Assembly (NCBI GenBank): GCA_963920765.1
Contig: OY987243.1
Span: 27,585,419-27,649,418 of the forward strand
Direction: 5' to 3'
Length of the DNA: 64,000 nt
DNA from: Ulota crispa
Taxonomy: Eukaryota; Streptophyta; Bryopsida; Orthotrichales; Orthotrichaceae
The first letter of the stretch is position 1. Each line of letters opens with the position of its first letter. The position numbers and the translations under genes were made by a program. This document shows positions 9,363 to 63,340 of the stretch, one piece after another. The notes beneath the pieces are model-generated. The model had not been told where the DNA came from. It saw nothing but the letters and a program-made list of their open reading frames with translations, and searched no databases.

Positions 9363-9482
9363 TCCCTCAAGGCCTAAGCAGCCTTCTTTTAGCTTTCTAG
9401 CAATTTGGGCAAGTCACTGCAAATGGATTTTTCATTTGTTTTTTTTTTAAATTTTCACATATTAAGTACCCAAGGAGTAGCT

Positions 9483-10407: not shown

Positions 10408-10863
10408 GGCCCAACAATTTTCATGACTTTAACTTCGTGGCTCAAAAGTTATTGCATGATCTATTGCTTTCTTTGCTCATCAAGGCAACCTGGGCAGCAC
10501 AAAAATTCTTTAAAATTTATATTTCAAGTTAGCTTTTTTTTAAATTGGTTCTTTAGATCTATATATATATATATATATATGTATGTGTAGGAAGCTTTGA
10601 ATCATTCAATTTTTGCTAATGAGATGAAAGTTATAAGAAGTTTTGTTTCCGGTTAGGTGTGGAGTCTCTCAAAACCACACCTACTTGCAAACTAAAACTT
10701 TTCATAACTTTCATCTCATTAGCAAAAATTGAATGATTCAAAGCTTCGCACCTATATATGCGTCTAAAGAACCAATTAAAAAAAAATTGAAATGTAATTT
10801 TTAAAGAAATTTTTTAACTGCCCAAGCTGCCCTGACAAGCAAAGAAAACAACAAGTCATGTAT

Positions 10864-11324
10864 AGTGCGTGCCACCATAAACCAACAAAAATGCAACAAT
10901 CATATTAACTATTTATAGCAACTCTCAAAGAATTATATTATCTCTTTGTAACTACAAGCAATGGGATGTTAGAAAAAAATTTACAAAGAGAAATGGAAGC
11001 TATCATTTGCCAAAAAAAAGTTATCATCATTAAAAAATGGTAATAATTGGACATTTTACACTAAGAGGGCAAAGAATTGGCCATCCTAGCACTTGCTGCC
11101 TCAAATACTAATAATTAATTTGCTTGAAATTGACCAATTGACTAACTAAATTGATAAAAATCCAAAGTGGAATCATGCTACTTGGTCAATTCATTTATGT
11201 CCCGTGACAAGTACAAGAAGTGTCATCTCAGTGGTGGAGCATGTCATAGCTAAAAGCTAATAATCAAACAACCCAAAAATTGGTCACTTTCCATGGTTTG
11301 TTGGTTTATGGTGGCACACACCAT
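10864..11324. repeat. Inverted-repeat element D nested in B2-1
   Basis: The ends are inverted copies built on GTGCCACCATAAACCAACAA, about 25-28 bp imperfect. The uninterrupted sister element near 51.32 kb lacks this segment, so it is a genuine insertion of about 460 bp. The target duplication is not clear and no coding capacity is seen. Confidence 0.7.
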
Positions 11325-12162
11325 AGTAACTTTTGAACCATGAAGTCAAAAGTTATGAAAATTGTTGGACCTTAAAGCCACTCCTTTGGTTCTTCATGTG
11401 TAAAAATTTAAAAATAAATAAATAAAAAACCCATTGGTAGTGACCTGCCCAAAATTGCTAGCTTGGGCCTTGAGGGGTTAAGGGTTAAACCTTCTTGGAA
11501 TCCAACTTTTAGCAAACTAACTAATACCAATTATGTAAAATGAATAAATAACCTTTCAAATTGCCAATTTCCCTTCTTGTTTAAATGATTGAATGATATA
11601 ATCAAGGGTTCTTCAACAAGCCAAATGACTCCCTTATGTTATTGTAAAAAAATGCAAAATATTCTATTATTGTCAAAGTTTACTGTATTGGAGTAGGTGT
11701 ATAGTTGGGTACAGGGTGCTTACCAATTATTGATTTCAATTTTTGAGTTTTTTTGGTGAAACAAGATGTATGTTTGGTATATTTTTGTCAAAAAAAAAAA
11801 TCATTGCATTCTTATGGAATGCCAAGCAAGTACATCAAATTTCAGCTCTTAAAAATCAAAACTTCATTTTTGGTGAATGATTTTGTAAGGAACTCATGGT
11901 TTTACATGATAAATTGTTGAAAAATATTGGTGATGAATTTTTTTAGATTTGATTGCAAGGATATGTAGGAAACGTCCATACGCACATCTTCCATGTTAAA
12001 AAAAATCCCCTAAAGTAACAAAACTTTGAACTACAAAAGATTCAATGAAATTTGTGATAAGCCAAAATTTTGTAAAATATATATTTTTCTATGAAAATCA
12101 AAATTTGTTATTTGACTCAAATATTATAATTGTCATGGACATGAACGGATTGACCTAGGAGG

Positions 12163-17800: not shown

Positions 17801-18019
17801 CGCAATATCCTTCTTCGTCCCGCCTTCCACCTCTTCCTCTTCCTCATCACTATCGTCCGCAGAGCCTCCCTCCGCCATAGCCACATCTTCATCGCCTACT
17901 TCCGCGGCCGCTTCCTCTATCGCCGCTATCTCCTCAGGATCCTCTTCCTCAGCCTCGGGCTCCATTTTAACATCCTCCTCCTCCTGCTTGGCAGCAGCTC
18001 CTCTCCGTCCACTCGCCAT
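14873..18019 (-). CDS. ISWI: ISWI-family chromatin-remodelling ATPase, intronless reading frame
   Basis: Encodes a 1048-residue SNF2-family ATPase that slides and spaces nucleosomes in the nucleus; plant orthologues are CHR11 and CHR17. Residues 1-170 are acidic and lysine-rich. The ATPase has the nucleotide-binding motif DEMGLGKT (about 209-216), DEAH (312-315), the ITGTPLQNN block (about 339-347) and the C-terminal helicase lobe with STRAGGLGINL and QAQDRAHRIGQ. A HAND region (about 690-795), SANT (about 835-885) and SLIDE (about 920-1005) follow, then a basic tail ending KKRK. Length and domain order match full-length plant ISWI. The start is the ATG at 18019 (MASGRR); an in-frame TTG upstream is not a start. 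The coding region has no intron, although Arabidopsis ISWI genes have many, which suggests a retrocopy or intron loss. No frame damage is visible, so it is probably functional. Coding GC exceeds that of the flanks. Confidence 0.96.
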   Translation of the reverse strand: MASGRRGAAAKQEEEDVKMEPEAEEEDPEEIAAIEEAAAEVGDEDVAMAEGGSADDSDEEEEEVEGGTKKDIAKRERQRLHDLKKRKKAEVDAFLTEQNKLVDSDMNTKAKGRLKFLLQQTEIFAHFANGPQAAKDAKKGSKGRHGSKVTEEEEDKEYLKEDEDAGAARGTRLLVQPSCINGKMREYQLAGLNWLIRLYENGVNGILADEMGLGKTLQTISLLAYLHEYCGISGPHMVVAPKSTLGNWMNEIRRFCPVLRAFKFHGNQDERTFQRDNMLVAGKFDVCVTSFEMAIKERTALRKFSWRYIIIDEAHRIKNESSILAKTMRLFSTNYRLLITGTPLQNNLHELWALLNFLLPEIFSSAETFDEWFQISGDNDQHEVVQQLHKVLRPFLLRRLKSDVERGLPPKKETILKVGMSTLQKTYYRALLQKDMDAINTGGERKRLLNIAMQLRKCCNHPYLFEGAEPGPPYTTGDHLVETAGKMVLLDKLLPKLKQRQSRVLIFSQMTRLLDILEDYCQYRTYQYCRIDGNTSGDDRESAIDQFNAPNSEKFCFLLSTRAGGLGINLATADIVILYDSDWNPQVDLQAQDRAHRIGQKKEVQVFRFCTEFTIEEKVIERAYKKLALDALVIQQGRLAEQKAVNKDELLQMVRYGAEKVFSSGDSTITDEDIDRIIAKGEEATAELDQKMKKFTDDAIKFKMDDTAGLYDFDDQDDKEDGKNEFKKIVADNWIEPPKRERKRNYSESDYFKQAMRAGPVPKPREPRIPRMPQLHDFQFFNTQRLTEIFEKEVKGLLQAKAAGTGEDVRIIEDVEEGLTEKEQEEKEQLLSEGFQSWSRRDFVAFVRACEKYGRDDLKSISSEVDGKTEEEVDSYSKVFWSRYSTLNDHERIIKNIERGEARISRKDEIMKSVSKKLDRYRNPWLELKIQYGQNKGKLYSEECDRFLLCSVHRLGYGNWEELKAAVHASPVFRFDWFVKSRTPSELARRCDTLIRLVERENQELDQRERQARKDQKKMNKGSPSPGRRGWGTSPGLEDVQGNSKKRK

Positions 18020-18560
18020 CGCTAGCCCTAACAAAACTGCACAATATCAACAAAAACCTACCAAATTTCTCCACCAAATCGTGCCCCGGCAAATAGCTTC
18101 GGCGCCGATCCGCGAGCTCATACGAAATTCTTCGCGCGAGATGCTCCCGAACGCATCACCGGGCGCGCAACCGATCGGGGGAGGGAATGCATTTGATCGA
18201 AGGTAGCCTTGTGACACCATGGAAAGGGTTTGGGGGAGCTTGGAGCCCTAACGATTCTCGTCCTCTGTAGGTTCTCGTCGGTGGGGAAAGGGACGAGAGT
18301 CCACGTATGCTGACGAAACGCGGGTTGCATGACCAGCGGGCGCTGGAGGTCGTGCATTTTATCAACGGAACTTAGCGTCCACTGAGAAAGCGGACGGGAG
18401 CGCTCGTTGGGTAGTCGTTTGACGAAAAAGCGAGTTTGCTTGGCTCCCGCGTTTGGAAACTGGCGGGAGTTACGAGGGGTGCGGAGGAGGGATTCAGGTT
18501 TCGGGCGGGGGCGGGCCCCGCTTTTTTTAATTTGGAGTTTGAAATGGGGATTTGTGACTG
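18020..18560 (-). promoter_or_regulatory. 5' UTR and promoter region of ISWI (not resolved)
   Basis: A GC-rich, repeat-free stretch precedes the ISWI ATG. No clear TATA box is seen, as is common for housekeeping genes. TGTGCAG at about 18036-18042 on the minus strand could be a 5' UTR splice acceptor. The transcription start cannot be fixed, and ORFs on either strand here are GC-driven shadows. Confidence 0.4.
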
Positions 18561-23523: not shown

Positions 23524-24578
23524 ATGATATGTTCACACTTGGTGTTAGGAGGGGTATTAGCAATATGAATGCAATTTAAAAATGTGTCCAAATGCATTTA
23601 AATTTCCTTTGCTAATACTCCTCTTAACCCCTAAAGGCCCAAGCCCTTTTTTCTATGAAAGTCACTAAAAACGTCCACTTTGGGGGAATGATTAGAAAAG
23701 TAGGAAATAAAGTTTGTTTTGCAAATCCAACCGTAAGATCTTGCCTTAGACTAGAAGAGGTACTTGTGGGAAAATAATAATGTCATTCTAGATGCTGAGG
23801 AGGGAGATATTTACATCTAAAGTGGAAAAAAGGTTTTTTTTTGTGCTGTCCAAAAAATCCAAAAGCCTTTGACCACTCTTACATGAAAAAAATTGCTCTA
23901 CACAAAGTTGAGGTTTATTTTTTCCATGTAGAAGATCAAGTTAGGTATGTGTGGGAGAATTTTCAAATCAATTGGAACTATACAACACACGGGGAGAAAT
24001 AGTAAGTAAAAAGAAGTAGAGAATGAGTCAAATCACTAAATTGTTAAGAATTTAATTATTGAAATGAAAAATGCAAATCCCAACAGTTACAATCTTGTAA
24101 TAAACAATCTACTTCCTTAGGTTTAGTTTTTTTCCCCAAAATATTGAAAATTGTGGAAAATAAAGGACTTCAAAGCTTATTTTAGAGTGGATCCATAATT
24201 GGCCACAAACTAAAACATCTCATAACTTTCATCTCGTTGATTGAAATGGAATGATTCAAAGGTTCCCACGTATAAAAAAATCTAAAGAACCAATTTCAGA
24301 TTTTTTATTTTTAAAATACACAATTTTTAAAGAAGTTTTTTTGGGCTGCCCAAATTGCCCTCACTCCCCTAGCAGAAATTATTGCATAACTTCTTTGTCA
24401 ATTGTTAGAATGAAAAAAAAATTAGATGCCCACATAGGTCTTGGAACTCCTCACCTTCAATAAAATTTTCAAAAAATTACACAAACTAGTTTAGCCATAG
24501 ATACATGCCCAAAATCCATTTGTCCCTGACGGGACAGTTGAACCTTTACGGGTTAAAGCCAAGTGTGAACATACCCTT
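23524..24578. repeat. Small palindromic MITE (F) interrupted by a TTAA-type element
   Basis: Joining 23524-23627 to 24557-24578 gives a palindrome of about 125 bp with arms TTCACACTTGGTGTTAGGAG and the inverted equivalent. The arms are colinear only if a single TTAA is counted, so the insert at 23628-24552 duplicated TTAA. Confidence 0.75.
23624..24556 (-). repeat. TTAA-type element, 0.93 kb subfamily (B1-5)
   Basis: TTAA at 23624-23627 and 24553-24556 flank a 925 bp body with ends CCCCTAAAGGCCCAAGCCC and CCTTTACGGG. It is antiparallel to the copies at 1542 and 32121. The ORF at 24251-24463 is incidental. Confidence 0.88.
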
Positions 24579-29056: not shown

Positions 29057-29952
29057 TTAACTCCTAATAACCTGTTGTCCCTATAAGGGAAAAAAAAAAA
29101 AATTTGGGCAAGCTTGTTCTATTGGGATTTTTGATCATTTTCTTTGAATTTCTATTGTGAACTAGAGGTTTGCAAGGGCTTTGCATGAGTAGCTTCCTTT
29201 TATTGAAATCAAAATTAGGATTCAAAGTTATTGGCATTTTAAGGGTTGACTATGTTCAAGGGATAGTTTGGCAAACCATTTTCCATTAACTTCTCCCAAA
29301 AGCAGCCAATGAAGGTATAACCTTTGATTGGAGTAAATCCAAAGCAATAGTGCAATAGATAAATACATTATTATTTATGATAAGTGTAATAGCATTTGAA
29401 ATGCAATAGCTACTAGAGATTTGTTTTTTTATTCAAAGTTTTTTTGGGGGTTGTTAATGAAGGTAAATTCTTTCAATCTACCAATTGGATTTTTATAACT
29501 CAAAATCACCCTCAAAAAATTTGTTTGAAAAAATCCCAATGTAGTGTGAATTTCAAGCACATATTTGCAATGCAAGGCCACGTAGGGTGTGTTGCATGTC
29601 TTTGTTAGTTTTGGAGATTTGTGAAAATGTGCCTAATATAATTTAGAGCATGTTAGACAACTCTCTACAACATTCATATTGCAAATAATGTTTATAACAT
29701 GTGATCAAAGGAGTCTGAGAATTTTGGGTAAAGGTCAAAAACTTTATTTATTTTAACTTTAAATGATCATATTTCTCAATGTCTTTGGTCAAATCTCATG
29801 AGATTTTCATTGTGGCTTCTTGCATAAGTCTTGTGTAAGATCTTATGGTTTTATTTTTTTTAAAGAAAAAGAATTCTCTTGGGATCTTATATCTGAAAAT
29901 AGCAGTTTTGAAGTTTTTTGAGAAATAATGGCCTTGGGCGTTTAAAAGTTAA
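29057..29952. repeat. Diverged TTAA-type element
   Basis: TTAA at 29057-29060 and 29949-29952 enclose an 888 bp body whose ends (CTCCTAATAACC and GGGCGTTTAAAAG) are degraded forms of the CCCCTAA...AGGGG termini. Assignment rests on ends and length; the interior is strongly diverged. Confidence 0.5.
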
Positions 29953-31062
29953 GAACCATATTTCAAGACTTTGTGAAGAATGCATCACAAAAGTTTCTAC
30001 TTCCTAATCGTTGACCGCTTTAATTGATGGGTATGACGGTAAATATTTTTGGTAACGGGTTTGATAGGTATGTATGATCGTACTGGTTTTGAATTGAATG
30101 TTGAAATTAATATTGGAATTGGGTCAATAAAATAAAGAAGTTCAAACTCAACCAATTTTAGTACTAAACTGTTACAATGCCAAACTTACAAAAGTAATCC
30201 TGATGTAAAATTCTTTGATTTTTAATTTATCCAATGACCACCGTCAGCATGAAGAGGCTTTTCGGATTTTTGTAGTTTTTGTAACTTATTGTGGTAAGTT
30301 ACTCTTGTGCTGTGGAGCAGCAATGGTAAGGGATCTGGCACCCCCCTGTCACCTGAATTCATGTACCAGGAACATCCACCAAATAGAATGAAAGCCCCTG
30401 GCAGGGGCAGTACATGCATTATTCGGCCATGCATACAAAGCCTTACATATCATCCTTGATAACTTATCTTTGGTCAGTGGAACAAGACAATATTGTTCCC
30501 CTTTTTGGTAGGTTTAGCACACCAGCTTTTTAACATTTTCCTGCTCTTCTCGCCCAAAGGCATCCTCATTCCGGCCGGGAATAGGTTACAACAAGTGAAT
30601 GGTCCGACTGTAACTGGAGAAGATCATCCCCAATGTAGTTGCAGAGGCAAACATGAAGTTTATGGTATGAGCATAGGAGCAATTTTGGTTGGCATTCAAT
30701 CTAGTTGGCAAGTGCAATTGACTCTTTGAGAGTTTTTTCGCAACTCTTCCTTCCTTCTTGCAATCAACCTCCCCAACCAAGCGCTCTCACATCTTTAACT
30801 ACTTTAGAGCTTGTTGCGCTTTGAAGCCCCAATTTCCTTATAAAGAAGGTTGTTTCAAGAATTGCACATGTAATAAGGCCTTCCTTTTGCTATTTTCAAA
30901 GCTTTTACCTATGCCTTGACGAACCCTTAAGTGCTCGGGGGTCACCGTGGAAACACAGCCCCGTGTATGAGAGGGGATGAAAATAGTCCTTGTTGTTTTT
31001 TAAGGGCTACAGACTCCCTCAAGGCAACATTTCTATTGGCGCATGCTGCACTAAAGTTCCAA

Positions 31063-32120: not shown

Positions 32121-33062
32121 TTAACCCCTAAAGGACCATTGTCCCTTTGTGGGACAAGTGGGATTTTGGGCATGTACCTATGGCTAAACTACTTTGTGTG
32201 AATTTTTGAAACTTTTATTGAAGATCGGGAATTCATATATGTGTGTGGGCATCTAAATTTTCCTTTATTCCAACATTTATTGATGAAGTTAAAAATGAAT
32301 TTATGAAAATCAAGGGAGGCCGGGCAACCAAAAACTTTTTTGAAAATAACGTTTTTTTGAAATAAAAATCCAAAATTCTTTCTTTAGATTTATACATATG
32401 TGAGGAGCTTTGAATCATTCAATTTTGATTTATGAGTGAAAAGTTTTAGTTTACGCGCATGCACAGGATTTTGATACCTCCATTCCATTTGCCTTTGGTG
32501 CATTACTTTTTTGAGCTCTTTGTGAATTTGATTTTTGACTTCTTTTTCTTCTAAGTTTTAGTAGACTAAAATTCCTTGGTTTTCACCATTTGGATCAAAA
32601 TAATTCATATGTTTCAATTTTACATAAATCCTCCAATTTGACATAGTGTATATGCAAATTTCATGTCCTTACGGCATTGCAAGATTTTACAAAGTATGAT
32701 CCACACCTCCAATTCATTTGGAAAATCTCCCACATTTACCTAACTTGGTCTTCTACATGGAAAAAATAAACCTCAACTTTGTGTAGAGCAATTTTTTTAT
32801 ATTTAGGGACAATTAAAGGCTTCTAAAAATTTTGGGCAGCAAGGAAAAAAACTTTTTTTTCACTTTAAATGTCAATATCTCACTCCTCTACATCCTGAAT
32901 GAGATGATTTTTTTTCCACAAGTACCTTCCATAGTCTAAGACAAGATCTTACAATTGTATTTCCAAAAATAATTGTTTTTCCTACCTTTCTATTCATTCC
33001 CCCAAAAGTGGCAGTTTTCAGTAACTTTTGCTGAAAAAAGGGCTTGGTCCTTTAGGGATTAA
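32121..33062 (+). repeat. TTAA-type element (B1-6), nested in the left arm of H
   Basis: TTAA at 32121-32124 and 33059-33062 surround a 934 bp body. The opposite arm of H has the uninterrupted site with a single TTAA at 35715-35718, a direct filled/empty comparison. Confidence 0.9.
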
Positions 33063-34660: not shown

Positions 34661-35588
34661 TTAACCCCTAAAGGACCAAGCAAAGTTTCCACCAAAAACT
34701 CTCCAAAATTGCCATTTTTAGAGCATTAACCAAATTTGACAACAAAAACATTTTTATGCATATGTAACCGTAGGATCTTGCAGAAGAATAGTTCTAGAAG
34801 ATGTTGAAAAAACTTTAGAATTTCCCACCACGTGGATTAGAAGATAGAGTGGTTTGAATATTCAAAAACGTCTTGTGAAAAACCGAGCAGCTACCCTTCA
34901 AAAGATGAAATTCCTAAGGAAAAAAGGATGTGTGGGTGGTGCTTCTCTAAATTTCTTATTCCACTTAAGTAAAGTACATGTCAATAAAGTTTCTATCATT
35001 TGGAATTGTATAACATATGGAAAAAAATTAGTTAGTAATAAGAAGTAGAGAATGATTCAAAACACAAAATTGTTAAGAATTTAATTATGGAAATGAAAAA
35101 TGCCAATCCCAATGGTCATAATGTTGAAATAAACAATCTACATCCTTTAGTTTTGTTTTTTTTCCAAAATGTTGAAAATTGAGTAAAATAAAGGACTTCA
35201 AAGTTTATTTTAGAGTGGAGAATCCATAATGCAAACAAAAAATCCTCATAACTTTCATCTCGTTGATCAAAATGGAATGATTCAAAGCTTCCTACATTCA
35301 AATAAATCTCCTAAACCAATACAAAAAAATGCTTTTCAAAAAAGTGATTTTTAATAACTTGCCCAGGTTACCTGACAAAAGTAAAAAACAACATATTAGG
35401 CCATAACTTTTTACTCAAAATTCCTCATGTCATGAATTTTAGTGCATTTGAAAGATAGACCTTCTTCCCACATTATATTAAAATTTTAGCCTAAAATACA
35501 AAAAGCTTCAATCATAGGTACCTACCCAAAATTGCTATGTTGCTAAAAAAAGAGGTTTATAAAAGGGGGTCTGGTCCTTTAGGGGTAA
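34661..35588 (-). repeat. TTAA-type element (B1-7), nested in the right arm of H
   Basis: TTAA at 34661-34664 and TAA at 35586-35588 (one T lost) flank a 921 bp body with intact CCCCTAAAGGACC termini. The left arm of H keeps the empty site with one TTAA at 33194-33197. The insertion point differs from that in the other arm, so both inserts postdate the palindrome. Confidence 0.88.
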
Positions 35589-36052
35589 GAAGAAATTGAT
35601 AGACTTATGTATAATTGAGGAAAGTTGCTTCAATGCAGTGTACATGATCTACAAAATGATTGCACCCATTGCCCATGGCAATAAAAATGTAGGTCTTTTA
35701 TGAATATAATTTGCTTAATGTTCATTGATTTCAATATGCTAAACAACCATCACGGATTTTTTCATCCACCTTACACCGCCACTTTTCATATGTGTTAATT
35801 TCATTCATTGGCTCCAATGAATATTGTTGATGTATTTCATCCACATCCTCCCCTCTTTCAAATGATTACTGCACTTTAGAGACAAATTGTGTTGTTTTAG
35901 GGAATTTTTTGTTGTTTCAAAACATCCAATCTCAAATTACGGAAAATTTTATTTCTCCTCCTAAACTCTAAAAAATCTCTTTTATTGCTCACCGCTCATT
36001 GCTCACTACTCACCACTCATCACTCACAATCTAGCGTCGTTGACTAGGCAGG

Positions 36053-36701: not shown

Positions 36702-37785
36702 TTAAACCCTAAAGGACCATTGTCCTTTGCGGACAAATGGGATTTTGGGCATGTATCTATAACTAAATTACTTTATGTAATTTTCTAAAACTTTTGTTGA
36801 AGGTGAGGAATTCAAAAACCTGCATGGGAATGTAATTTTTTTTTTCTTTCATTTGGGTGTCAAACAAAAAAATTATACATGTTTTTTTGAAAAATGTTGT
36901 TCAAGGGGCAGCTTGGGCAGTACCCTCCCTTTGTAAGTGATAATTGACTGCGGAAGTGGACAACTAAGAAGGGCAAGACAAGCAACAAGGGTGATCACAT
37001 GAGAGATTGGGTTCTTTTACTGTTGCGGGCTTCCACAACTAGAGCACCCCAGCCGTGGAGCAACACCTGGAGTAGGGGAGCGGGAGAAGCAGCTGAGAAT
37101 TGGCATGAGGCCAAACTCGGGAGCTGCGGGCCCAGTTTCCAAGATGGGGGGGGGTGCAATGGGGGAATGGGCCCATCTTATGAGACCCAAGTCCATCTAT
37201 TGCATCTGCCCCATATAAAAAACCATATTTTTTATATTTTGAGTGGGTTTTATATGCTTTTTTAATGTTTTGTTCCCTAGTTTTAGTAGACTAAAATTCC
37301 TTGGTTTTATTCGTTTTGATCAAACTATTTCTAAATTTTGAGTCTCTCATAAATCCTTCAACTTTGCATAGTGTATATGCAAATTTCATGACCTCACGAC
37401 ATTGCAAGGTTTTACAATGTATGATGCACAACTCCAATTCATTTGAAAATTCTCCCACACATACCTAACTTGGTCTCCTACATGAGAAAAATAAACCTCA
37501 ACTTTGTGTAAAGTATTTTTTTTGCTCTAAGAGCAGTCAAAGGCTTCTAAAATTTCTGGGCAGCAGCAAAAATTTTTTTTTTGCACTTCAAATGTAAATA
37601 TCTTGCTCACATTTTTCTAGATTGAGTTGATTTTTTTCCTACAAGTACCTCTTGTACTCTACTATAAGATCTTACGGCTAGATTCTTGTTAAAAACTACT
37701 TTTCCTATCATTGTACTTGCTCCCCCAAAAGTGATAATTTTTTGTGTTTTTCACAGAAAAAAGGACTTGGTCCTTTAGGGGTTAA
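36702..37785 (+). repeat. TTAA-type element (B1-8) with a GC-rich passenger
   Basis: TTAA at 36702-36705 and 37782-37785. The outer parts match the 0.93 kb subfamily. About 36945-37205 is GC-rich with no match in ordinary copies and includes the open frame at 36999-37265, which has no recognised domain. This is the second TTAA element with a GC-rich block in the middle (the other is at 7668-8887). Confidence 0.78.
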
Positions 37786-38897: not shown

Positions 38898-39360
38898 CTA
38901 ATTATTCCAAGCACAATACGTAACTCACTACTAGATGCTTGTCACTTGGGATCAAGTACTTCCTGTGTCAACTTGTATTCAGCTCTATTCATGAGAGTCC
39001 TTGTAAACCCTATGCATTCCACTGAATGATGGCTGGCCAACTGAGTTGACTTGCATTTACAATCAGTCATTCCATCATGTACAAGTGCAATTGAGTTTTT
39101 GTACATAAATGCCCAAAACTTGCGCTTTAAAGTTCAAAGTTTTCACCCAAGAAAATCTAGGAATTTATAAGTTTCCAGTTAGAGGATCAAGCATGGAAAT
39201 CCAAACACATATCTAGATGCAAATACCCTATTTCTGTAAACGGCGGCTGCTTAGGAAGAAAATAAACCTAATCAACTACTAATTTTAACTTTTGTCTTTA
39301 TTTGTAAATAAGTGGGAGCTTTCCCACCTTTGGGTCCACATTCATGTGTTTAGTATACCC
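38898..39360. other. Unassigned interval
   Basis: No gene or repeat recognised. ORF 38820-39029 overlaps the end of foldback J and is not coding in my judgement. Confidence 0.4.
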
Positions 39361-40262
39361 CTTTAAAGACCACCAAACCATATTTTGGTTTAGTAGAGTG
39401 GTTTTTGGCTTATAGAGTAAAATCACTTAACAATTTGGAATTTGTCTTGAAGAATGCTTGTGATCACAAGAATTTTGCATTCAACCAAAAAAATAACAAT
39501 GGAATCGGGTTTGTGAGTTGATAAATATGGTGTTTACACAACATGACCTCAAAATAAGTATCCATATTTTGTCAAAGATGGATCAAAGCAATAACACAAT
39601 ACATCAAACATCCAAGAAGAATGTCAAATTTCAATTGTGCAATCCTAAAAATTTCAAATTGCTTAAGAAATACGCTTTTGTTGTTTTTCTATATGGTAGT
39701 AGTATAATTGTAGTGTTTGAGGATCTATTGAAATTGTGCTATCATTTTATTTTAAAAATTTGTTATCCTACACTCAAGGCATATTTATGATTGTTTTCAC
39801 CAATTAGATTTTCCATAGCATTTATCAAATTTCTTATAAACCGTTTTTGGGTAGCAATTAAAGTGGGGGTTTTTACCCTTTTTGTCCACTTAGCTACACC
39901 TTGTGATTGCCATTTTTATCCATTTTGTGTGAAACTAGTCTCATTGGTCCCTAATAAAAGGTGGGAAACCTAGCTTTTAAGAATATAAGGCTCTTCTCAA
40001 GCAAAGTTTGTATGAAGCAATAAGATCCAAATCACACAAGCATGAAAAACTAGAGATTTTCTATCTACATCTCATTTAGTCATTATAATATTTCATCTCC
40101 AATGGTAGATCTGGTTGAAATTTTGACAATTTATAGTAAATAAGGTGTCCTTCCCATTTGTAGGTTTAGATTATACAAACTAGATACACATTTGATTCAA
40201 CTACACATTTCAGTTTACTACCTCACTTTCTTGAGAATCTTGTAAAAATGTGTGTGGTTAAA
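39361..40262 (-). repeat. Dispersed repeat C, copy 2 (uninterrupted)
   Basis: The reverse complement is colinear with 1065-1541 plus 2468-2886. Here the repeat runs without the TTAA element, and the corresponding site near 39771-39774 reads TCAA (TTGA on the other strand). ORFs at 39518-39790 and 39791-39973 lie inside the repeat. Confidence 0.7.
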
Positions 40263-41596
40263 GGGACACTTAGCACATTATCAAGAGGATGTTAATTCAA
40301 TAGGGGGTTTTGTATTATCAAACAATGTTGCATTTTGAAGGGTAAGTCCAACCTTCATCATGGCTGTCACATTGGGTTGTTTGTATGCCTGCCCGTTCAC
40401 TTGCTTGCCCATACGCCTACCCGCCCATACACTTGAAGTGCCCAATTTAGATCGTGGTTTGTCTGATGAAGTCAACTCATAGTTGACTTTAAAAAATGGT
40501 ACATGATAAAAAAAACTTACTTTGTACATGCTAGTGACACTCATTGTTGCCAAGATGAAGTCAAAACATGGATTTGAAGCCATGTCAGTGGAATCACATA
40601 ATAAAAATGAAAAATGGAAATTTTATTCTTCCATTTTTGGGTCAAAAATCCTAAAAATGCCCTAGAAATACAAGCAAGTATACACTTCTGTCCACTATGT
40701 CATTTTGGGTGGTCCACTTGTGTTGTTTGACAACCTAAAGTTACCTGAAATAACAACCTTCTTTGACCTTCATATGAAATTTTGAATATTTTATTGTCCT
40801 TTGCATTTGCAAGGCTTTAAAAATATAACCCTTCAAAAACAAATTGGTTATGCAATGAGCAAAAAAGATTGGGAAAATTTTAAAATATTGAAATCAAAAC
40901 CTTGTTAAAAATCACACATAGAATAACACTTCATTGAAGTCTAATAGACAAAGAAAATATGTTTAAAACTTCAAACAAACCAATTCACTAGTAAAGCCTA
41001 TGTAATCTATAAAAATGTAGGTATTACCAATCTATCTTGATCAATTTGAGCCTATCTCCAACTCAACTACTTTGCAATGCTTTATACCACTTCAAATATG
41101 AATTATATCAAACCAATCCAAATTTTCCATTTACTTTTCACACCAATATATCTTCACAAGTGTATGTATATAATGCTCTAACTATTAAAAATAAAAGTAG
41201 AAATATAAAAGCAAGGTGCTTTGGAACTTAGGTGGTCTTGCTTTTGTGCATGTGGTTATGTTGCTTGTACACTTGTGTGGAGCCAACCCTAAAACCCTCC
41301 CTATTGCTATCATCCATGTAATGGATAGATGTAGTGTTATATACCACTTTGATCCATACTCATCTTAATTGCCCACCTAAATACCATATTTCCAACACTC
41401 TCAAGATCAAGGTTTAAAATTGATATCCTTATGAGGTCTTCATTTGACTTTCAAAATATAAACTAGCCTTTGAAGTTCAAGATTGCTTTTTTTTCCCACC
41501 CTTTGCTATTACAATATTGATTTATATTTTGCCCTTCACTTGAAGGGCACTTAGTTTTACCCCTTTATGCAAAGAGCATTGCAACCTTCAAAATAC
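40263..41596. other. Unassigned AT-rich interval
   Basis: No supported gene. A short run of GCCTGCCCGTTC-like repeats lies near 40387-40430. The 100-residue minus ORF at 40281-40583 spans it and has no recognisable domain. Confidence 0.4.
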
Positions 41597-43225: not shown

Positions 43226-43369
43226 CTCTGTTTCGCACTGCCTTACCTTCACCTTCACCCTCACAGTCACCTGCAGCGCTTCATCACCTTCACACTAAGC
43301 TTAGAGTTTACACCCGGCTCGACCAGCTCCGACTAAGTTAGTGAGCTACTCATCCAACTCCCAGTCGCA

Positions 43370-44115
43370 ATGGCGACCGTCAAGTCTGTTGCGTTCGCAG
43401 CGATGGCGCTGCTGGTGGTGCTGGCGATGACGTGGGAGGCGCAGGCGCAGTGCCCCTCGCCGTTGGCCTTGCAGTCATGCCAGTCCGCCGTGACGGCTGC
43501 GAACCAGAACCCCTCCCTCGATTGTTGCCAGAAGGTGCAGACGGCCCTTGCAGCTGCTGATGGCGCCAAGTGTCTGTGCGACGCCATGACCAGCCCCTCC
43601 GCCAAGGCCTTCAAGGTCATCCAGCAAGAGGCCGTCCTGCTCCCCAGCAAGTGCAAGAAGCTCATGGGACTCCAATATGCCGCTGGATACAACTGCGCTG
43701 GTTCGACCTCTTCTCTCTCACCTGTTTCTTCTCTTCTATACCTTGCTTCTGGTCTCCAGTTTTACTTGCTCCACATATTGCTGATACAGTTTTTTCGTTG
43801 CTGCACAAAAAACCTTCGCAGATCTGGTCCTGGAGTCCCATTATTCTTGTACTATCCCATCCCATCCAAGTGTCAGAAAGTCTTAATACTTAATATCCAG
43901 ACCCAGCAGCGTCTGCAGTGTCTGTATCAGTAATGTAGGACATCGTTTTCCACATCAGCCATTGTGCAAAGATCTAAGTTTTCGAAGGCTGTGGAATATT
44001 CCTGTCATTTTATCGTAGAAACTGGTGTTCAATAGGAGTTGTACGTGTGGTGGCATTATGTATGAGGAACTAAGAGACTCGGGGATGGCGTTTTGCAGGT
44101 TCAACTGTTCCTTAA
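43370..44115 (+). CDS. Secreted non-specific lipid-transfer protein, two exons
   Basis: Predicted as exon 1 43370-43700 and exon 2 44099-44115, giving 115 residues. Residues 1-26 form a signal peptide (hydrophobic AAMALLVVLAM core, cleavage after AQA). The mature part has the eight-cysteine pattern of plant lipid-transfer proteins: C-x8-C-x14-CC-x14-CLC-x24-C-x13-C, which forms four disulphides around a lipid-binding cavity. Such proteins act outside the plasma membrane in cuticle or wall lipid traffic and defence. The intron (phase 1) falls two codons after the eighth cysteine, near the usual place for this family. Splicing GTTCGA to TTTTGCAG yields the ending YNCAGSTVP and a stop. The donor is weak; if retained, translation would run to 43933 with an unrelated tail. 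GC content is well above the flanks. Confidence is high for the family and moderate for exon 2. Confidence 0.88.
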
Positions 44116-48614: not shown

Positions 48615-49007
48615 GGGGCGGTTCACACTATGTCTTCAGTCATAATGAACTCAAATATCAGTTCAAAAAATAAGTTTGGTTGCAAGGGTGGACCTTTGAA
48701 GATACAACGTAACACACTTACATAAGTCTCGATTCATTTATAAATGCATACACGGCAGCTACAGATACTTTGAATACTTTCGACTTTGAGAATTGAATCT
48801 TCACTCAAAAAATTGGGTCTAACAAAATTAGAAACTCAATCAGGAAATTAGTTCCCAACAGGAAAGAATTGCAAAGTACTTTTCAGCTTCTATTTACATT
48901 TTAATAATTCTCTTACCTTTGCAATTTAGTAAAGTGGGGGTCTAGAAAAGCTGGGATCTGATATTGAATTGTAAAGTTCGGACTTGGGACATTGTGTGAA
49001 CTGCACC
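48615..49007. other. Unassigned interval between TTAA termini
   Basis: Nothing is recognised here beyond two flanking TTAA-type ends (48611 and 49008). Confidence 0.4.
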
Positions 49008-49660
49008 TTAACCCCTCACCGCCCTTGGAATTTTGGAGTATCTCAAAATTTGCTTGAAATTGAACAAAATGCTGGCATTTTGACCAATCTTATCAATTTT
49101 TTTTGAAATGTAATTGTACAAATTCAAACTAGACATGTTATAGATTGCATACAAAAAGAAATCACAACTATTTCACTTATGGATTGAAAGAATATAATGT
49201 TTGATCATGACGGTGTTAAAACTGTGAAAGTGATTTGAAGTCTTTCAACCCTCTTTTTGCATCTCAAACCTAAAATTGAGGGTACCAAAAAAATATGAGT
49301 ATGTAAAGTACAACATGCATAATCCCAATCAATTTACGGCTTCTCAGAATCTATTCTACAATTTTTTTAAATGGATTTTTAATGCAAATTTTTCTCCAAG
49401 TTCTAGTGTTCTTGAGGCTCATTTCCAAGAGCCTTCAACACTAGAAAGTGAAGATTTGCAATGGAAACCCTTGCACAAAATCTTGAATAGACAAATCATG
49501 TTAATTCATTTTCAAGATTAGACTCTTGGCGTTGAAACTAGACTTCAACAACGATTTAGATATAGTAATAACCACAAAAAAAATCTTCAAAAAACTTTCA
49601 GTACCCCTGAACAAAATTCAGAGTGGCGAAATAAACACCCCTCGGACGTTGAGGGGTTAA
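49008..49660 (+). repeat. TTAA-type element, 0.65 kb subfamily (copy 2)
   Basis: TTAA at 49008-49011 and 49657-49660; ends CCCCTCACCGCCC and GGACGTTGAGGGG. The interior is colinear with 411-1064 (shared block ACAAATTCAAACTAGA). ORF 49276-49521 is in the repeat. Confidence 0.82.
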
Positions 49661-50194: not shown

Positions 50195-50548
50195 TTAACC
50201 CTTAAAGGATAGATGGATCACCGTGGCTTGCCCTGCCTGTAGCATTTTATAGTGTTTTGCACATGGGCATCAATAGTATTGCTTCAAAAAGTTGGAAAAG
50301 TTAACAATGCATAATGCCCTCCTGAAAATTACAAGCAGGCAGCTCAGGAGCTAACACCAAGTATCCCAATTTGGATTACAAAATAAAATGAACATATCTC
50401 AAGAGGTAAATTTTTGCCTTCCATGATGCACTACGCTTTTATGATCACTTCTAAAAAAAATCAAATCAAAACTGGTCTTTTTCTGGGATATAGGGTTTTT
50501 TTCGGAGGCAACGGACGTTTTTTGTCCGTGCCGACGTTTAGGGGTTAA
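50195..50548 (+). repeat. TTAA-type element, 0.35 kb subfamily (copy 2)
   Basis: TTAA at 50195-50198 and 50545-50548; ends CCCTTAAAGGAT and ACGTTTAGGGG. The body of 346 bp is the reverse complement of 9007-9362. Its right TTAA contains the TA bordering the next element. Confidence 0.8.
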
Positions 50549-51696
50549 GGTAGGCGCACCCATAAGCATGGAAATAAGGGTTTTGGAGTAGGTAAAACAA
50601 TTGACTAACTTTGAATAAAATACTGTAAATTAGGAAGTGGAAACCAAAACTATTGGCATCAATTTCAAGGTTCCAACTACAAGCATTTGTTCACAAAGAT
50701 TTTTCAAAGTCCAAAATCACTAAAATTGTAAGAACCATGTGTAAGAGATGCTAAAAACAAGGTTTGTTGGTTCTTAACCCCTCAAGGCCCAGACAGCGTT
50801 TTTTGAGCTATGTAGTGACTTTGGGCAGGTCATTACAAATAAATTTTGCATTTGTTTATTATTTTATTTTCACACATGAAGTATCCAAGGAGTAGCTTTA
50901 AGGCCCATCAATTTTCATAACTTTGGACTACATGGTTCAAAAGCTATTGCATGAATTGTTGTTTTCTTTACCCGTCAGGGCAACTTGGATAGCTCAAAAA
51001 CTTCTTTAAAAATTACATTTCAAGTTTGGTTTTTTTAAAATTGGTTCTTTAGATCTATATACAGGTGGGAAGCTTTGAATCATTCAATTTCCATCAATAA
51101 GATGAAAGTTATGAGAAGTTTTAGTTTGCGGGTAGATAGACTGCATACCTACCCGCAAACTAAAACTTCTCATAACTTTCGTCTCATTAATGAAATTGAA
51201 TGATTCAAAGCTTCCCACCTATATATAGATCTAAAGAACCAATTTTAAAAAAACCAAACTTGAAATGTAATTTTTAAAGAAGTTTTTGAGCTGCCCGGGC
51301 TGCCCTGACGAGTAAAGAAAACAACAATTCTTGCAATAGCTTTTGAACCATGTAATCCAAAGTTATGAAAACTGATGGGCCTTAAAGCTACTCCTTGCGT
51401 ACTTCATGTGTGAAAATAAAATAATAAACAAATGCAAAATTTATTTGTAATGACCTGCCCAAAGTCACTACACAGCTCAAAAAACGATGCTTGGGCCTTG
51501 AGGGGTTAAATAGTGAGATGGGTACTCAAAACCTCATGCTAGTCACCCACAATCATCATTTCATAACCCATAACCATCACCCAATCACCCACAACCATCA
51601 CCCAATCACCCACAACCATCTGTTTTTTTATTCATTAGCCCCTGCCACTGTCACGTGACGGCTATAAGGACACAACGCTTATGGATGCTGCTACCT
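50548..51696 (+). repeat. MITE, AGGTAG family (A2), interrupted by a TTAA-type foldback
   Basis: Left AGGTAGGCGCACCCATAAGC, right GCTTATGGATGCTGCTACCT, with TA at 50546-50547 and 51697-51698. After removing 50778-51509 the remaining about 417 bp match A3 (57345), A4 (62459) and A5 along their length, including the ACCATCACCCAATCACCCAC run. Confidence 0.88.
50774..51509. repeat. TTAA-type foldback element (B2-2), complete near-palindrome
   Basis: TTAA at 50774-50777 and 51506-51509, ends CCCCTCAAGGCCCA and TGGGCCTTGAGGGG. The whole 728 bp body is a near-perfect inverted repeat centred near 51141, with about 360 bp arms and almost no loop. The host MITE in three other copies reads TTCTTAA(A/C)TAGT at this point, so the insertion duplicated TTAA. 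Confidence 0.92.
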
Positions 51697-51928
51697 TAAC
51701 TTACATCCACACTATAACTATAAATGCAACTGCACATCTGAATTTTACATTATTGTAAGAACTATTCAAATATCTCTTCTTATTTTGTTGTCGGTATAAG
51801 TTGAGTTAATGTAATAGTTTAAAGTTAGAATCAACAAGGTGCAATTGAAAGCCTTTGACTTAGCTTTGAATAAAAATAAAAATTTAATATTTGTTACGCT
51901 TGGAGAACCGTGTAGATAAGACATTTGT

Positions 51929-52855
51929 TTAACCCCTGAAGGACCAAGGAACGTTTTCACCTAAAACTCTCCAAAACTGCCATTTTTAGAGTATCAATCG
52001 AATTTGAAAACAAAAACATTTTTATGCATATGTGATCGTAGGATCTTGTAGTTGAATAGTTTCATGAGAAGTGGCAAAAATTTCAGAATTTAATATAATA
52101 TGAATTGGAAGATAGAATAGTTTGAATATTCAAAAACATCTTGTGAAAAATCAGGCAGCTACCCTTCAAAAGGTAAATTCCTAAGGAAAAAAGACTCCAT
52201 GGGTGGTGCTTCTCTAGATCCCTTACTTTGCCCTCAATTCCGTCTAAATGGGGTACATGTCAAAAAAGTTTCAAATCATTTGGGACATAATATATGGAAT
52301 GTAAATAATAAGTAAATGAAATAGAGAATGATTCAAAATACAAAATTATTAGGAATTTAATTCTGGAAATGAAAATTTCCAATCCCAATAGTTGTAATGT
52401 TGCAATAAACAATCTAAATCCCTTGGTTTTGTTTTTTTTCCAAAATTTTCCAAATTGAGTAAAATAAAGGACTTCAAAGTTCATTTTAGAGTAGAGAATC
52501 CTTAATTGCCCGCAAAGAAAAGCTCCTCATAACTTTCGTCTCACTAATAGAATGGAATAATTCAAAGCTTTCCACATTCACAAAAATCTCTTGAACCGAT
52601 TTTGAATTTTGAATTTTGAAAAAAATGATTTTTAAAAATTTGCCTGCGTTGCTTGTTGAGTGAAAAAATAACACATCAGGTTGTATCTTCTTATTCATAA
52701 TTCCAAATGTCATGAAATTTAGTGCATATGAAAGACAAACCTTGTCCCTACATTCTATTAAAATTTGAGCCTAAAATATGAAAATCTCCATTCACAGGTA
52801 TTTGCCCAAAATTACTATGTTGCTAAAAAAGGAAGCTTGGTCCTTTAGGGGTTAA
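51929..52855 (-). repeat. TTAA-type element, 0.93 kb subfamily (B1-9)
   Basis: TTAA at 51929-51932 and 52852-52855; body of 919 bp with ends CCCCTGAAGGACC and GGTCCTTTAGGGG. It is closest to the copy at 34661-35588, and both share the CTCCAAAACTGCCATTTTTA-type variant end. Confidence 0.85.
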
Positions 52856-54325: not shown

Positions 54326-57300
54326 AAGTAAATGCACCTACAAGAGTGGAAATAAAAGTTTTAGAATAGGTAAAACAATTGACTAACTTTGAAAAAAATA
54401 CTGTAAATTAGGAAGTGGATTTAGACAACTTTTTGTATAAGATATGGCCACTTTGAGTATAATGTCATGGCTTTTGGTCTAAAAAATGCCCCGGCAGTCT
54501 TTTAGCATATAACAAATGATATTTTTTGAAAGCATCTTGATAACTTTGTTGTCATCTACTTAGATGATATTTTGGTATTTTCCAAAAATAAATAAGATCA
54601 TGCAAAGCGCGTTCGTTTAGTCCTTGAAAAATTATGCAAACGAGGGCTTTATGCCAAACTAGAGAAGTGTCTATTTCACCAAACTGAGTTGAAGTTTTTG
54701 AGATTCATTTGCAACTACGGAGGAATTAAAGATGGATCCTAAGAAGGTAGAAATTATATTGTTTTGGAAAGTTCCAAAGATTATTAGAGACGTACAATGT
54801 TTTCTTGGTTTTGCTAATTTTTTTTGAGTATTTTTCAAGAGCTATTCTCAAGTTGTTGCTCTGCTCACTTGGTTGACAAGCAAAGACAAATTTGATTGGG
54901 GACCATTAGCGGAGAAAACTTTTCAGAATCTAAAGACCGCATTCATTAAGGCTCCAAGTTTAGTATATTCAAATTTTTCAAATGCTAATTATTTAGAAAT
55001 CGATGCTACAGATTTTGCTTTGGGAGCTATACTTATACAATTGGGAGAAAATAAGAAGCTTCATTTAATTGCTTTTTACTTTCAGAATTTTTTTGCTGCT
55101 GAGATCAATTATGAGATCTACGATAATGAACTTCTTGCTATTGTAGATTTTTTTTTAAGAGTGGTGCCATTTCTTTGAAGGAGTTACGCACTCGATAATT
55201 GTTTATACAGATCACAAGAATTTGGAGTACTTTATGTAATCTTGTGTTTTAAATTGGCGTCAAGCTCAATAGAATATGTCTCTATCTTGATTTGACTTTA
55301 TTATCACATGTCAACCGAAGAAGCAATAAAGACTATTTGATGTTTTATAAAAAAAATCATATTTTGAGTCCAATACTGGAGAAATAATATTTGATCAACA
55401 ATGTAGAACTTTGTTGAAGCCATAACTATTTTTCTTTTGCGCTACGATTATACCATCACTTATAAATGAAGACTTCCTCAACCAAGTTCGCGTTGCAATC
55501 ATTGGAAATTGTGTAGCTCTCGACATCAAACGTTGCCTTGGTGAAGAAGACAATTTTAAGGTGGATAGAGATTTGTTATAATTTGAAGAATGTTTATTCA
55601 TTCCAAAAGGTCCAATATAACTTTGCGTTCTTCAATCTCGTTATGACTTCCCAGCCGCAAGTCATTTTGAATACAATAAGACTTTGGAACTCGTTTCTAG
55701 AGACTTTGGTGGCCTCAAATGTGGAAGGATGTGAAAGATTTTGTTACTTCTTGTGACATTTCTTCAAGATCCAAGAATCCTAGACATCACCCTTATGGAC
55801 TTTTGCAATCATTGTCTGTTTTTCGTCGACCATGGTCTTCAATTTCTATGAATTTTATTACGGAATTGTCGCCATCAGATTTATTTGACAGCATCTCTGT
55901 TGTAGTGGATCGGTTTAGAAAAAATGACACACTTTGCCCCTTGCAAGAAGACTTTGTCAAGTGAAGATACGGCAAGAGTAATCTTGATAATGTATATCAA
56001 TATTACGATTTATCAGACGATATTGTATTAAACAATATTGTATCAGACTAAAGTTTCTAATTTGTATAAAAATTTTGGAGATATCTTTTTAAGATATTGA
56101 AGGTATCAATCTCTCTTCAGCTTTTCATCTTCAAACTGACGGTCAAATATAATGGGTTAATCAAATATTTGAGCAATATTTTTGATGTAATATCAATTTT
56201 CAGCAAAACAACTGGACAAAATATTTGACGTTAACGGAGTTTGCATGCAACATTATTCTTCATGCTTCAACTCCACAAATACAATTTTATTTTAATTATG
56301 ACTATCATTCGAAGCTTGATCTGTTGAGTTCACCAACAAATAGTAATTCAACAATTGACAATTTTGTAAGGCAATTATTGCAAATTTAAGATTTTTTGAA
56401 GCTTCAACTACAATCCGCTCAAGAGTCTTATAAGACAACTATTGACAAATCTTGCAATCAAGTATTTGGTTTTCAAATTAGAGATAAAATATGGCTTCTT
56501 CAATGAAGTATTAAAACAAAGCGGTCATGTGACAAGTTAGACTACCGGAGATTGGGACCATTTATAAATTTAAAGCAGATCAATCCAATAGTATACTATT
56601 TGGAGCTACCAGTTTCTATAAAAATACATCTAGTCTTTTATGTATTTCTTTTAGAACCTTATTGGCAGTCGCATTGTCCAGGAAGAATACAACTGCGACC
56701 GCCGAGAGTTGAAATTGAAAATCACGATGAATATGAGATGGAACAAGTGTTAGACTTGACGAACTTTCACAAACATAGAAGTACGAAAATAATTGATAAG
56801 AATTAGAAATAAATTTGGATTCTAAGAAGAGAAATAAATAACAAAAGAGGTGAGCGATGGCCTCAAAAGATGTGTTGTTAAGTCTGAATAACACTTCAGC
56901 CTCAACTTCTATATATACTCTAATCTAAAGTGAAAGAAATCTAAAGTAAAAGATATTCTAAAGTTGAAAGTAAAAGAAAACAAGACGTTCTGAAGTAACG
57001 TTCCTAACAGTGGAAACAAAAAATATTGGCATCAATTTCAAGGTTCTTAACACAAATATTTGTTCATAAAGATTTTTCAAGTCTAAAATCATTGAAATTG
57101 TAAGAACCATGTGTAAGAGATACTAAAAACAATGCTTGTTGGTTCTTAAATAGTAAGATGGGTACTCAAAACCTCATGCTAATCATCCACAACCATCACT
57201 TTATCACCCATAAACATCACTCACTCACCCATAACCATCACACAGTCACCTACAACCATTTTGTTTTTTTATTAATTAGCCCTGCTACTGTGAGGTGATG

Positions 57301-57335
57301 GCCATGGGGACATAATGCTTATTGATGCTGCTACC
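54326..57335 (+). repeat. MITE, AGGTAG family (A5), split by a Ty3 remnant
   Basis: The left part 54326-54419 matches the beginning of the A elements with a decayed terminus. The right part 57010-57335 continues the same element to TGCTGCTACC. The break lies at GTGGA, which is present on both sides of the retroelement. Confidence 0.8.
54420..57009 (+). mobile_element. Ty3-type (chromovirus) LTR retrotransposon remnant, 5'-truncated
   Basis: Broken frames encode, in pol order, reverse transcriptase with the YLDD catalytic motif (near 54560), RNase H (about 54873-55180, an open stretch with the EIDATDFALGA block) and integrase (about 55700-56500, with the RHHPYGLLQ and SISMNFI blocks). A stub resembling a chromodomain (about 56730-56805) and a 3' LTR of about 159 bp (56851-57009, preceded by the polypurine tract AAAAGAGG, ending AACA) follow. 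Stops and frameshifts make it non-functional. The 5' LTR, gag, protease and start of reverse transcriptase are absent. GTGGA flanks both ends (54415-54419 and 57010-57014), so the truncated form seems to have been what inserted. Confidence 0.88.
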
Positions 57336-57344
57336 GGTACCTTA

Positions 57345-57739
57345 AGATAGGCGCACCCATAAGCGTGGAAATAAGGGTTTTGGAGTAGGTAAAACAGTTG
57401 ACTAACTTTGAATAAAATATTGTATGTTAGGAAATGAAAACCAAAAATATTGGCATCAATTTCAAGGTTCCAATTGCAAGCATTTGTTCACAAAGATTTT
57501 TCAAAGTCCAAAATCACTGAAATTGTAGGAACCATGTGTAAGAGATGCTAAAAACAAGGCTTATTGGTTCTTAACTAGTGAGATGTGTACTCAAAACCTC
57601 ATGCTAGTCACCTACAACCATCACTTCATCACCCATAACCATCACTCAATCACCCACAATCATTTGTTTTTTTATTGATTAGCCCTACCATTGTCAGGTG
57701 ACGGGCATAGGGACGCAACGCTTATGGATGCTGCTACCT
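57345..57739 (+). repeat. MITE, AGGTAG family (A3), uninterrupted
   Basis: Left AGATAGGCGCACCCATAAGCG, right CGCTTATGGATGCTGCTACCT, TA on both sides (57343-57344, 57740-57741). It lies about 190 bp upstream of the helicase telo-box. Confidence 0.85.
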
Positions 57740-57930
57740 TATATTAGATTTGTGGCTTGTAGGCTTCTGCGTTTCTGACAATTAAATTGAAACAAATAAT
57801 AAAGTCCAATGAACTATAAACAATTCATCTGCAGATTCCATCCATCCGTACAGCTCAACTATCCGCAGAGCCCATCTAGCCAAAACTCTTCCATACACTG
57901 ACAAACATTCATCCGATATAGAAGTCATAT

Positions 57931-62456: not shown

Positions 62457-62458
62457 TA

Positions 62459-62829
62459 AGGTAGGCGCACCCATAAGCGTGGAAATAAGGGTTTTGGAGT
62501 AGGTAAAATAATTGAGTTATGAAATGGAAACCAAAATTATTGGCATCAATTTCAAGGTTCTAGCTACAAGCATTTGTTCACAAAGATTTTTCAAAGTCCA
62601 AAATCACTGAAATTGTAGGAACCATGTGTAAGAGATGCTAAAAACAAGGCTTGTTGGTTCTTAAATAGTGAGATGGGTACTCCAAACCTCATGCTTATCA
62701 CCCACAACCATCACTTCATTACTCATAACCATCACTCAGTCACCCACAACCATTTGTGTTTTTATTGATTAGTCCTGCCACTGTGAGGTGACGAGCATGG
62801 GGACGCAATGCTTATGGATGCTGCTACCT
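62459..62829 (+). repeat. MITE, AGGTAG family (A4), uninterrupted
   Basis: Left AGGTAGGCGCACCCATAAGCG, right GCTTATGGATGCTGCTACCT, TA on both sides (62457-62458, 62830-62831). It contains the empty TTAA site (TTCTTAAATAGTGAG near 62660) used as reference for the insertion in A2. Its left part has a small internal deletion relative to A3. Confidence 0.88.
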
Positions 62830-62831
62830 TA

Positions 62832-63340
62832 TATCTTTGTATTGTACAGTATGCTAGATGTTCCATTTAGGTTGCTCCACACCAATATCTCAACATTTTA
62901 TGCTACATAAATACTTAGTGTACTAATACCACAATCAATTTCATCTGTAATAAAGGGCTTGGCAACAACACCAAAGCGGCATCTGAGTTGTAAGTCATGT
63001 GAAATCTTTGAGTATAAAGTGTTGCATACGCCTCCAATTGATCATGTGATGAGTCATGAGGTAACTTTCCATGTTAAGGCAACCTAAATGCAATATTTTA
63101 TGTAAAGTATTTGGAATATCTTGGTTGTTAAAAGGTTGATCATAATTGCACTTTGTAAAAGTATGTACATATACACAATAATCTATAAGCATAGTAAATG
63201 TTTTTTTTCTGAAGTTTCAAAACCGCAAACAGAATTAGAAAATAACATTTTGGTCGAAATAAAAACAAAGGAATCTAAAAAGTAATTGAGGGCGTAGGAA
63301 TCACAAAGGTGGTTTAGATATAAGAGCCAATGTATATGAC
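62832..63340. other. Unassigned interval
   Basis: No supported gene. The minus ORFs at 62995-63192 and 63183-63485 have no recognisable motifs, and the latter runs into the E-type repeat. Confidence 0.4.

Follow-up and report, generated by a model that had tools for sequence, protein, structure and literature searches.

The stretch analyzed here, which we call the window, comprises 64,000 bases (G000:C2:27585419-27649418) of a moss genome of 274,817,297 bases in 157 contigs (~275 Mb). It contains a gene for an ISWI chromatin remodeller, whose frame has 93% identity to Physcomitrium patens, which identifies the host as a moss, and 97% to a Logan protein, a lipid-transfer-protein gene, and many MITEs and related repeats (Table 1). 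The families delimited here cover 15,255 of the 64,000 bases (23.8%), the initial annotation having estimated roughly a fifth of the window; B1 and B2 together make up 16.1%. The window is enriched in CCCCTAAAGGACC, the commonest terminal 13-mer, with 8 exact copies observed vs ~2.2 expected from the genome mean. The element B2-2 is a near-palindrome with 94% identity to its own reverse complement. Its borders read TTAA-CCCCTCAAGG...CCTTGAGGGG-TTAA, and the flanks in MITE A2 read ...GGTTC TTAA on one side of the element and TTAA ATAGTGAG... on the other.

Table 1. Positions of genes, MITEs and transposase-element fragments in the 64,000-base window.
Feature	Position	Strand	Remarks
Family C MITE	411..1064	.	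end at 1064: 1/16 mismatch to L028 transposase element
Family D MITE	1061..2887	.	parts 1061-1545 and 2466-2887, interrupted by B1-1
B1-1	1542..2467	+	within element D
B1 copy	4596..5522	-	one end degraded, flank TAAA
P3 transposase-element fragment	5794..6261	+	aligns with L012 and L028 close to the 3' end of both
3' terminus of the same P3 element	7012..7098	+	1/16 from L028; flank TTTA
B1-type termini	7669..8887	-	surround inserted material; parts 7669-8193 and 8641-8887, with GTAA flank at 7669
Family E MITE	9006..9362	.	
B2-1	9359..11477	.	interrupted by B1-4 at 9483-10407
B1-4	9483..10407	+	palindrome at nt 15-33 of 5' end
ISWI chromatin remodeller	14873..18046	-	single uninterrupted 1057-codon frame
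B1-5	23624..24557	-	interrupts palindrome F; 5' flank TTTA
Family G repeat, likely MITE	29259..29955	.	relatives in L026 and L011 with one TTAA-flanked end
B1-6	32121..33062	+	interrupts left arm of palindrome H
B1-7	34661..35589	+	interrupts right arm of palindrome H; its TTAA is damaged on the right
B1 copy	36702..37785	+	
Family D MITE	39356..40265	.	relatives in L014, L019, L020 and L025 with TTAACCCTT ends on both sides
Lipid-transfer-protein gene	43337..43933		
Diverged family C relative	49007..49551	.	end at 49012: 4/16 from nearest transposase element
Family E MITE	50202..50549	.	adjoins A2 at TTAA
MITE A2	50545..51698	.	halves 50545-50773 and 51510-51698, interrupted by B2-2; apparently TA-flanked
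B2-2	50774..51509	.	736-bp palindromic MITE, both TTAA copies counted; sits in MITE A2
B1 copy	51929..52855	+	
MITE A copy	57009..57335		
MITE A copy	57342..57749		
MITE A copy	62457..62834		reads TATAAGG...CCTTATA

It was suggested in the initial annotation that the duplication of TTAA can be read from pairs of filled and empty sites inside the window, and the B2-2, B1-4 and B1-6 sites bear this out. B2-2 splits A2 at TTAA, and a single TTAA is found at this point in five uninterrupted A copies (window 57342, 62457 and 57009, and loci L016 and L020). In the same way, B1-4 interrupts B2-1 at a TTAA that is single in B2-2, and B1-6 interrupts one arm of palindrome H at a TTAA that is single in the other arm. 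Of two further pairs that had been claimed, that of B1-7, in the other H arm, has a partner with the single TTAA but the right TTAA of the element is one base short (GGGGTAAG), and that of B1-5, in palindrome F, gives partial support, the uninterrupted stretch reading CTAA. The B1-1 insertion in a D element can be added, with an empty TTAA seen in L025 and TTGA instead of TTAA at the same site in L020 and in the copy at window 39356.

The termini of MITE A, the host of B2-2, are AAGGTAGGCGC... and AAGGTAGCAGC.... Since MITE A appears to be TA-flanked rather than TTAA-flanked, we tentatively regard it as probably a different kind of element from the TTAA group, possibly a mariner-type family.

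Inverted arrangements such as palindrome H (window 31811-36027) were observed elsewhere in the genome (C1:1607758-1611883, C7:18203169-18224137 and C2:36765124-36780554), and on C1 four terminus sites at 904-908 kb recur as an exact mirror image at 914-917 kb (G000:C1:904386-917247). Fourteen of the 40 best B1 hits fall into seven pairs of inverted copies that lie 2.4-5.3 kb from each other and score the same or almost the same; score and stop content also agree within each of two inverted transposase pairs. Equal coordinate sums are trivial for a single pair of equal length, and the argument from them is limited to the C1 case with four sites. The large inverted duplications are either recent events or fold-back artefacts of the assembly, and palindrome H may be an older inverted duplication.

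One of the questions raised by these sites is whether TTAA is the duplicated unit. Genome-wide, CCCCTAAAGGACC has 9,597 exact copies on both strands (the reversed control has 3), and the expectation that most genomic copies would be flanked by TTAA holds, as 8,154 of them are directly preceded by it. TTAA is palindromic, so that at any one site a duplicated TA next to ends that begin with A looks the same. One possible option is therefore a Tc1/mariner-type (Stowaway-like) family with a TA duplication and termini starting with A, for which TTAA is a mere target preference; with ACCCC...GGGGT termini it would give the same filled and empty sites, and mariner elements are known in P. patens. Such a duplication predicts an outer T that is more variable than the inner A. 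Instead, the outermost T alone is substituted in 325 copies and the innermost A alone in 286 (of 9,597), in a test confined to these two positions. This about equal conservation disfavours TA duplication, although an absolute preference for TTAA would mimic it. In the window and 20 loci, T, T, A and A occupy the four flank positions in 67, 65, 67 and 63 of 87 matches, which include chance matches since up to two mismatches were allowed, and beyond TTAA the flanking bases are close to random. Moreover, the transposase elements that have such ends encode piggyBac transposases, and we consider the TA reading extremely improbable. The target duplication is thus the TTAA of piggyBac and neither the TA alone of Tc1/mariner (Stowaway) nor the 3-bp TWA of PIF/Harbinger (Tourist), since four bases stand on each side, the outer and the inner one being about equally conserved. 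The terminal inverted repeats are short and start with CCC/CCY.

The assignment to piggyBac had been made by inference, the group itself containing no transposase, and it is supported by 120 matches of the profile PF13843 (piggyBac, DDE_Tnp_1_7) in the genome, on contigs C1-C11, with a best E of 1.3e-73; no match was found in 14 control genomes. In this profile search 116 places were scored of 528 first-look candidates, and 28 loci were read. Judged by sequence, the moss transposases are homologous to the solved piggyBac enzymes, the frame of L020 matching the moth piggyBac transposase 6x67 (E 4.1e-20) and piggyBat 9c0f (E 5.8e-17). Ten of the 120 matches are stop-free, some of them partial, and most carry stops. 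Based on the profile alignment, an aspartate is present in 19 of the 28 loci at all three of the positions that we take, from the moth piggyBac enzyme, to be the catalytic ones, so that the genome does encode PF13843 transposases with the three catalytic aspartates. By the same alignment at least one is missing in the other nine (L010, L015, L016, L020, L026, L031, L032, L035 and L036), the third being N in L020. A cysteine-rich C-terminus, as in Trichoplusia ni piggyBac, is legible in L027 (in another frame of this broken copy) and in the relatives P0121 and P0123. A protein search returned 16 relatives for L020 and 27 for alignment A1, none of them named in NCBI or UniRef, in a search that finds only sharers of exact words and says little on absence elsewhere. 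Contamination as a source was ruled out because PF13843 matches and B1 copies are both found on each of the contigs C1-C11.

Two of the loci read differ in aspect. L024 (G000:C1:1180709-1181995) has the three aspartates and two matches 270 bases apart, each stop-free, as if split by an intron, and L017 (G000:C2:34594948-34595949) has an open frame of 389 residues that includes the transposase domain and the complete aspartate triad; element ends were found at neither. Based on these features, L024 is a candidate for a domesticated transposase gene, and L017 for a domesticated gene or a copy with degraded ends.

It had been proposed to search the assembly for a transposase between matching TTAA termini, and such elements are present: both ends could be assigned in 15 of the 28 loci read, with lengths of 5,026-6,996 bp (5.0-7.0 kb), the 5' end of the longest element, L026, being uncertain. 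The ends of these elements are, like those of the MITEs, of the TTAA-CCCY kind; TTAA stands on both sides in 12 of the 15 and has one base altered on one side in the other three. The terminus search used TTAACCC[CT][TA] with one mismatch tolerated and candidates picked by hand, and TTAA at the assigned ends is thus partly built in; similarly, the agreement of the two ends at 11-15 of the first 16 positions concerns ends sought with the CCC pattern. The case of L022 and L027 (5,308 and 5,230 bp) is independent of TTAA. Their alignment, 89-93% identical over 5.3 kb and blind to TTAA, runs exactly from TTAAC(T/C)CCTTGAGGAC to the opposite TTAACCCCTTGAGG(A/G)C, and places a transposase gene between matching TTAA-flanked termini. 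The 5.03-kb alignment of L009 and L018 ends at TT(A/C)ACCCCTCATYGCC and, to within a base, TTAACCCTTCATTGCC.

Similarity of the transposase DNA defines seven groups, within which the ends are shared: P1 (L013, L019, L020, L023, L033 and L034), P2 (L010, L021, L026, L031 and L035), P3 (L012 and L028, with L030 more distant), P4 (L009 and L018), P5 (L022 and L027), P6 (L014 and L036) and P7 (L025, L029 and L015). The 3' end was assigned in 21 of the 28 loci, in P6 for L014 alone; L015 has no assigned end, and none was assigned by terminus search and hand choice at L011, L016, L017, L024 and L032. A B1-like 3' end considered for L011 was dropped, since that stretch matches an independent repeat also found in the window and in L026. 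Close variants of CCCTTTAANGACCGTGG are found at the 3' end in all six P1 loci, and CCC(C/T)TRAGCRCC is common to all five P2 loci. Transposase identity and 3'-end identity are correlated (Spearman 0.25 over 21 loci and 210 pairs, with 13 of 5,000 permutations as high), a value that is partly circular because group membership helped the choice of ends. When the first eight transposase loci, 4 kb each, were searched for exact motifs, no TTAACCCC[TA] ends were obtained; finding the ends took longer stretches and a less strict pattern, and the ends vary among groups.

Several moss 5' ends have a palindrome at about nt 15-35, and the 19-bp internal repeat of moth piggyBac lies at a similar position. 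At about nt 12-38 it is found in L033, L034, L022, L027, L025 and L029 (p <= 0.03) and, more weakly but in this same position, in L013 and L023. It is also present in the B1 copies 4598r, 9483, 32121 and 8887r (p <= 0.05; weaker in 23624r); p is uncorrected for the 50 ends tested with 100 shuffles each. It is absent from this position in P2, P3, P4 and P6 and in B1 1542, 34661, 51929 and 36702. The 3' ends of the 15 transposase elements show no palindrome at p 0.05, and the B1 3' ends of 32121 and 36702 have their own inverted repeat at nt 20-44. The 5' palindrome is a candidate binding site for the enzyme.

The MITEs can be connected with these elements through their ends. Family C of the window (411-1064) is 89% identical to L009:8802-9454, both ends of which are TTAA followed by CCCCTAAATGCCCAAGG, with 0/16 mismatches to the 3' terminus of the transposase element L028. 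In family C, the termini of a MITE are thus identical to those of a transposase element, and we infer that the family belongs to P3. The 3' end of one P3 transposase element also lies in the window; its two parts (Table 1) are separated by ~750 bases absent from L012 and L028. The nearest transposase-element end to the 3' ends of B1 and B2 is that of L028 (2/16 mismatches), the B2 5' end is nearest to L021 (3/16), and the B1 5' end has 4/16 mismatches to its nearest; among the 28 loci read, none has a transposase element whose ends match B1 or B2 exactly. B1 and B2 probably belong to P3 or a close relative. The D relative in L019 has an end, CCCTTTAAGGACC, that is identical over 13 bases to the P1 3' end of L023, further D relatives showing one or more changes, and family D probably belongs to P1, as the CCCCTGAGCGCC ends probably do to P2. 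The ends of family E are 3 and 5 mismatches from the nearest transposase-element ends, and the end at window 48610 is 2 mismatches from the L026 5' end. Exact ends of TTAA plus 13 bases number 3,363 (P3-type), 1,342 (P2-type) and 1,585 (P1/D-type) genome-wide, and the four types including that of B1 give 14,444 exact TTAA-bounded ends, which are counts of ends and not of elements, as each type may mix MITEs and transposase elements. At L009:1521-1599 a 79-bp stretch has P3-type TTAA ends face to face, one flank being ATAA. Like stretches are found at G000:C1:241512-241590, C1:531562-531640 and C1:3362792-3362870, and these are possibly a recurrent minimal piggyBac MITE.

TTAA duplication alone is not sufficient to identify piggyBac. 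Another hypothesis is that Kolobok or Sola3, which also duplicate TTAA, moves the B group and that its piggyBac-like ends are a convergence. It would fit the lack of a transposase element with exact B1 ends, in a transposase search that used the PF13843 profile only, but the B1 and B2 ends resemble those of moss piggyBac elements and the family C ends are identical to those of one, which makes this hypothesis very unlikely. A further possibility, which refines the piggyBac explanation and does not exclude it, is that the amplification of B1 was due to a piggyBac lineage that is extinct or was not sampled, and not to P1-P7. The 28 loci read are a part of the 116 scored places and 528 first-look candidates, and B1 copies appear old: B1-6 has 93% identity to its best other copy (among 40 scored of 8,563 candidates), and with 92% for B2-2 (among 40 scored of 4,382 candidates) both families look old by sequence identity. 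We consider such a lineage plausible, at somewhat less than an even chance.

The explanation that fits these data best, and one that we hold with high confidence, is that the moss has non-autonomous transposons of the piggyBac superfamily, namely B2-2 and the groups B, C, D and E, which are served by the piggyBac transposases of separate elements. The enzymes would come from the 5-7-kb elements and would bind the CCCY... termini of the MITEs; the bound element would be cut out seamlessly through TTAA hairpins, as the moth enzyme does it, and then be joined into a TTAA, which would thereby be duplicated. The moth enzyme closes the cut ends into TTAA hairpins and binds its target TTAA in unpaired form, features that tie seamless excision to TTAA targeting (PMC7351741). 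By homology and by the TTAA duplication, similar chemistry is probable for the moss enzymes, which by this analogy may mobilise these MITEs. The moss elements share with T. ni piggyBac (PDB 6x67) a homologous transposase, the TTAA duplication, CCC-type ends and the positions of the catalytic aspartates, but are 5.0-7.0 kb long vs 2,472 bp. The coral CMITEs are also TTAA-duplicating MITEs linked by common termini to resident piggyBac elements, and the TIRs of coral family I are identical to those of one piggyBac element, much as in moss family C, but their host is an animal (PMC2872659).

One of the main genome-engineering tools, piggyBac is known chiefly from animals (insects and others). The initial annotation called such transposons rarely, if ever, described in land plants, which is too strong. 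The C-Fern repeat table (PMC6890710) gives 1,230 PiggyBac elements, a survey has PiggyBac among the superfamilies in all groups studied, land plants included (PMC4438587), and a review counts it as one of seven angiosperm MITE superfamilies (PMC10004981); two animal papers mention its occurrence in plants in passing. Like the moss elements, these entries are piggyBac assignments in land plants, but in the text at hand they are counts or superfamily lists and do not connect a transposase with termini and empty sites. For native piggyBac in moss, no description was found among the papers examined from an open-access library that lacks most subscription papers. In the searchable text, a Niphotrichum paper contains only the word 'piggybacking' (PMC10619864), PMC5253467 has piggyBac in its reference list only, and PMC5505980 names it only as a tool not yet tried in P. 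patens, noting that the moth system works as a tool in rice. A P. patens transposon paper relates the mariner elements of that moss to fungal ones and suggests horizontal transfer, a precedent for a possible horizontal transfer of moss piggyBac.

The moss elements are a new member of the piggyBac superfamily in an unexpected host. The 120 transposase matches and 14,444 exact ends provide a land-plant branch of piggyBac in which enzymes and ends can be paired group by group. They make it testable when and how piggyBac entered plants (by vertical descent or by horizontal transfer), whether diverged MITEs are moved by a single enzyme, and whether there are piggyBac systems adapted to plants. More broadly, we see about equal chances for and against mosses hosting an old and diverse piggyBac radiation, with at least seven transposase groups in one genome, ends that diversify with the enzymes, many thousand MITEs and maybe domesticated genes (L017 and L024). 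If this is true, the genome of this moss would perhaps be one of those on which piggyBac has left its strongest mark among land plants.
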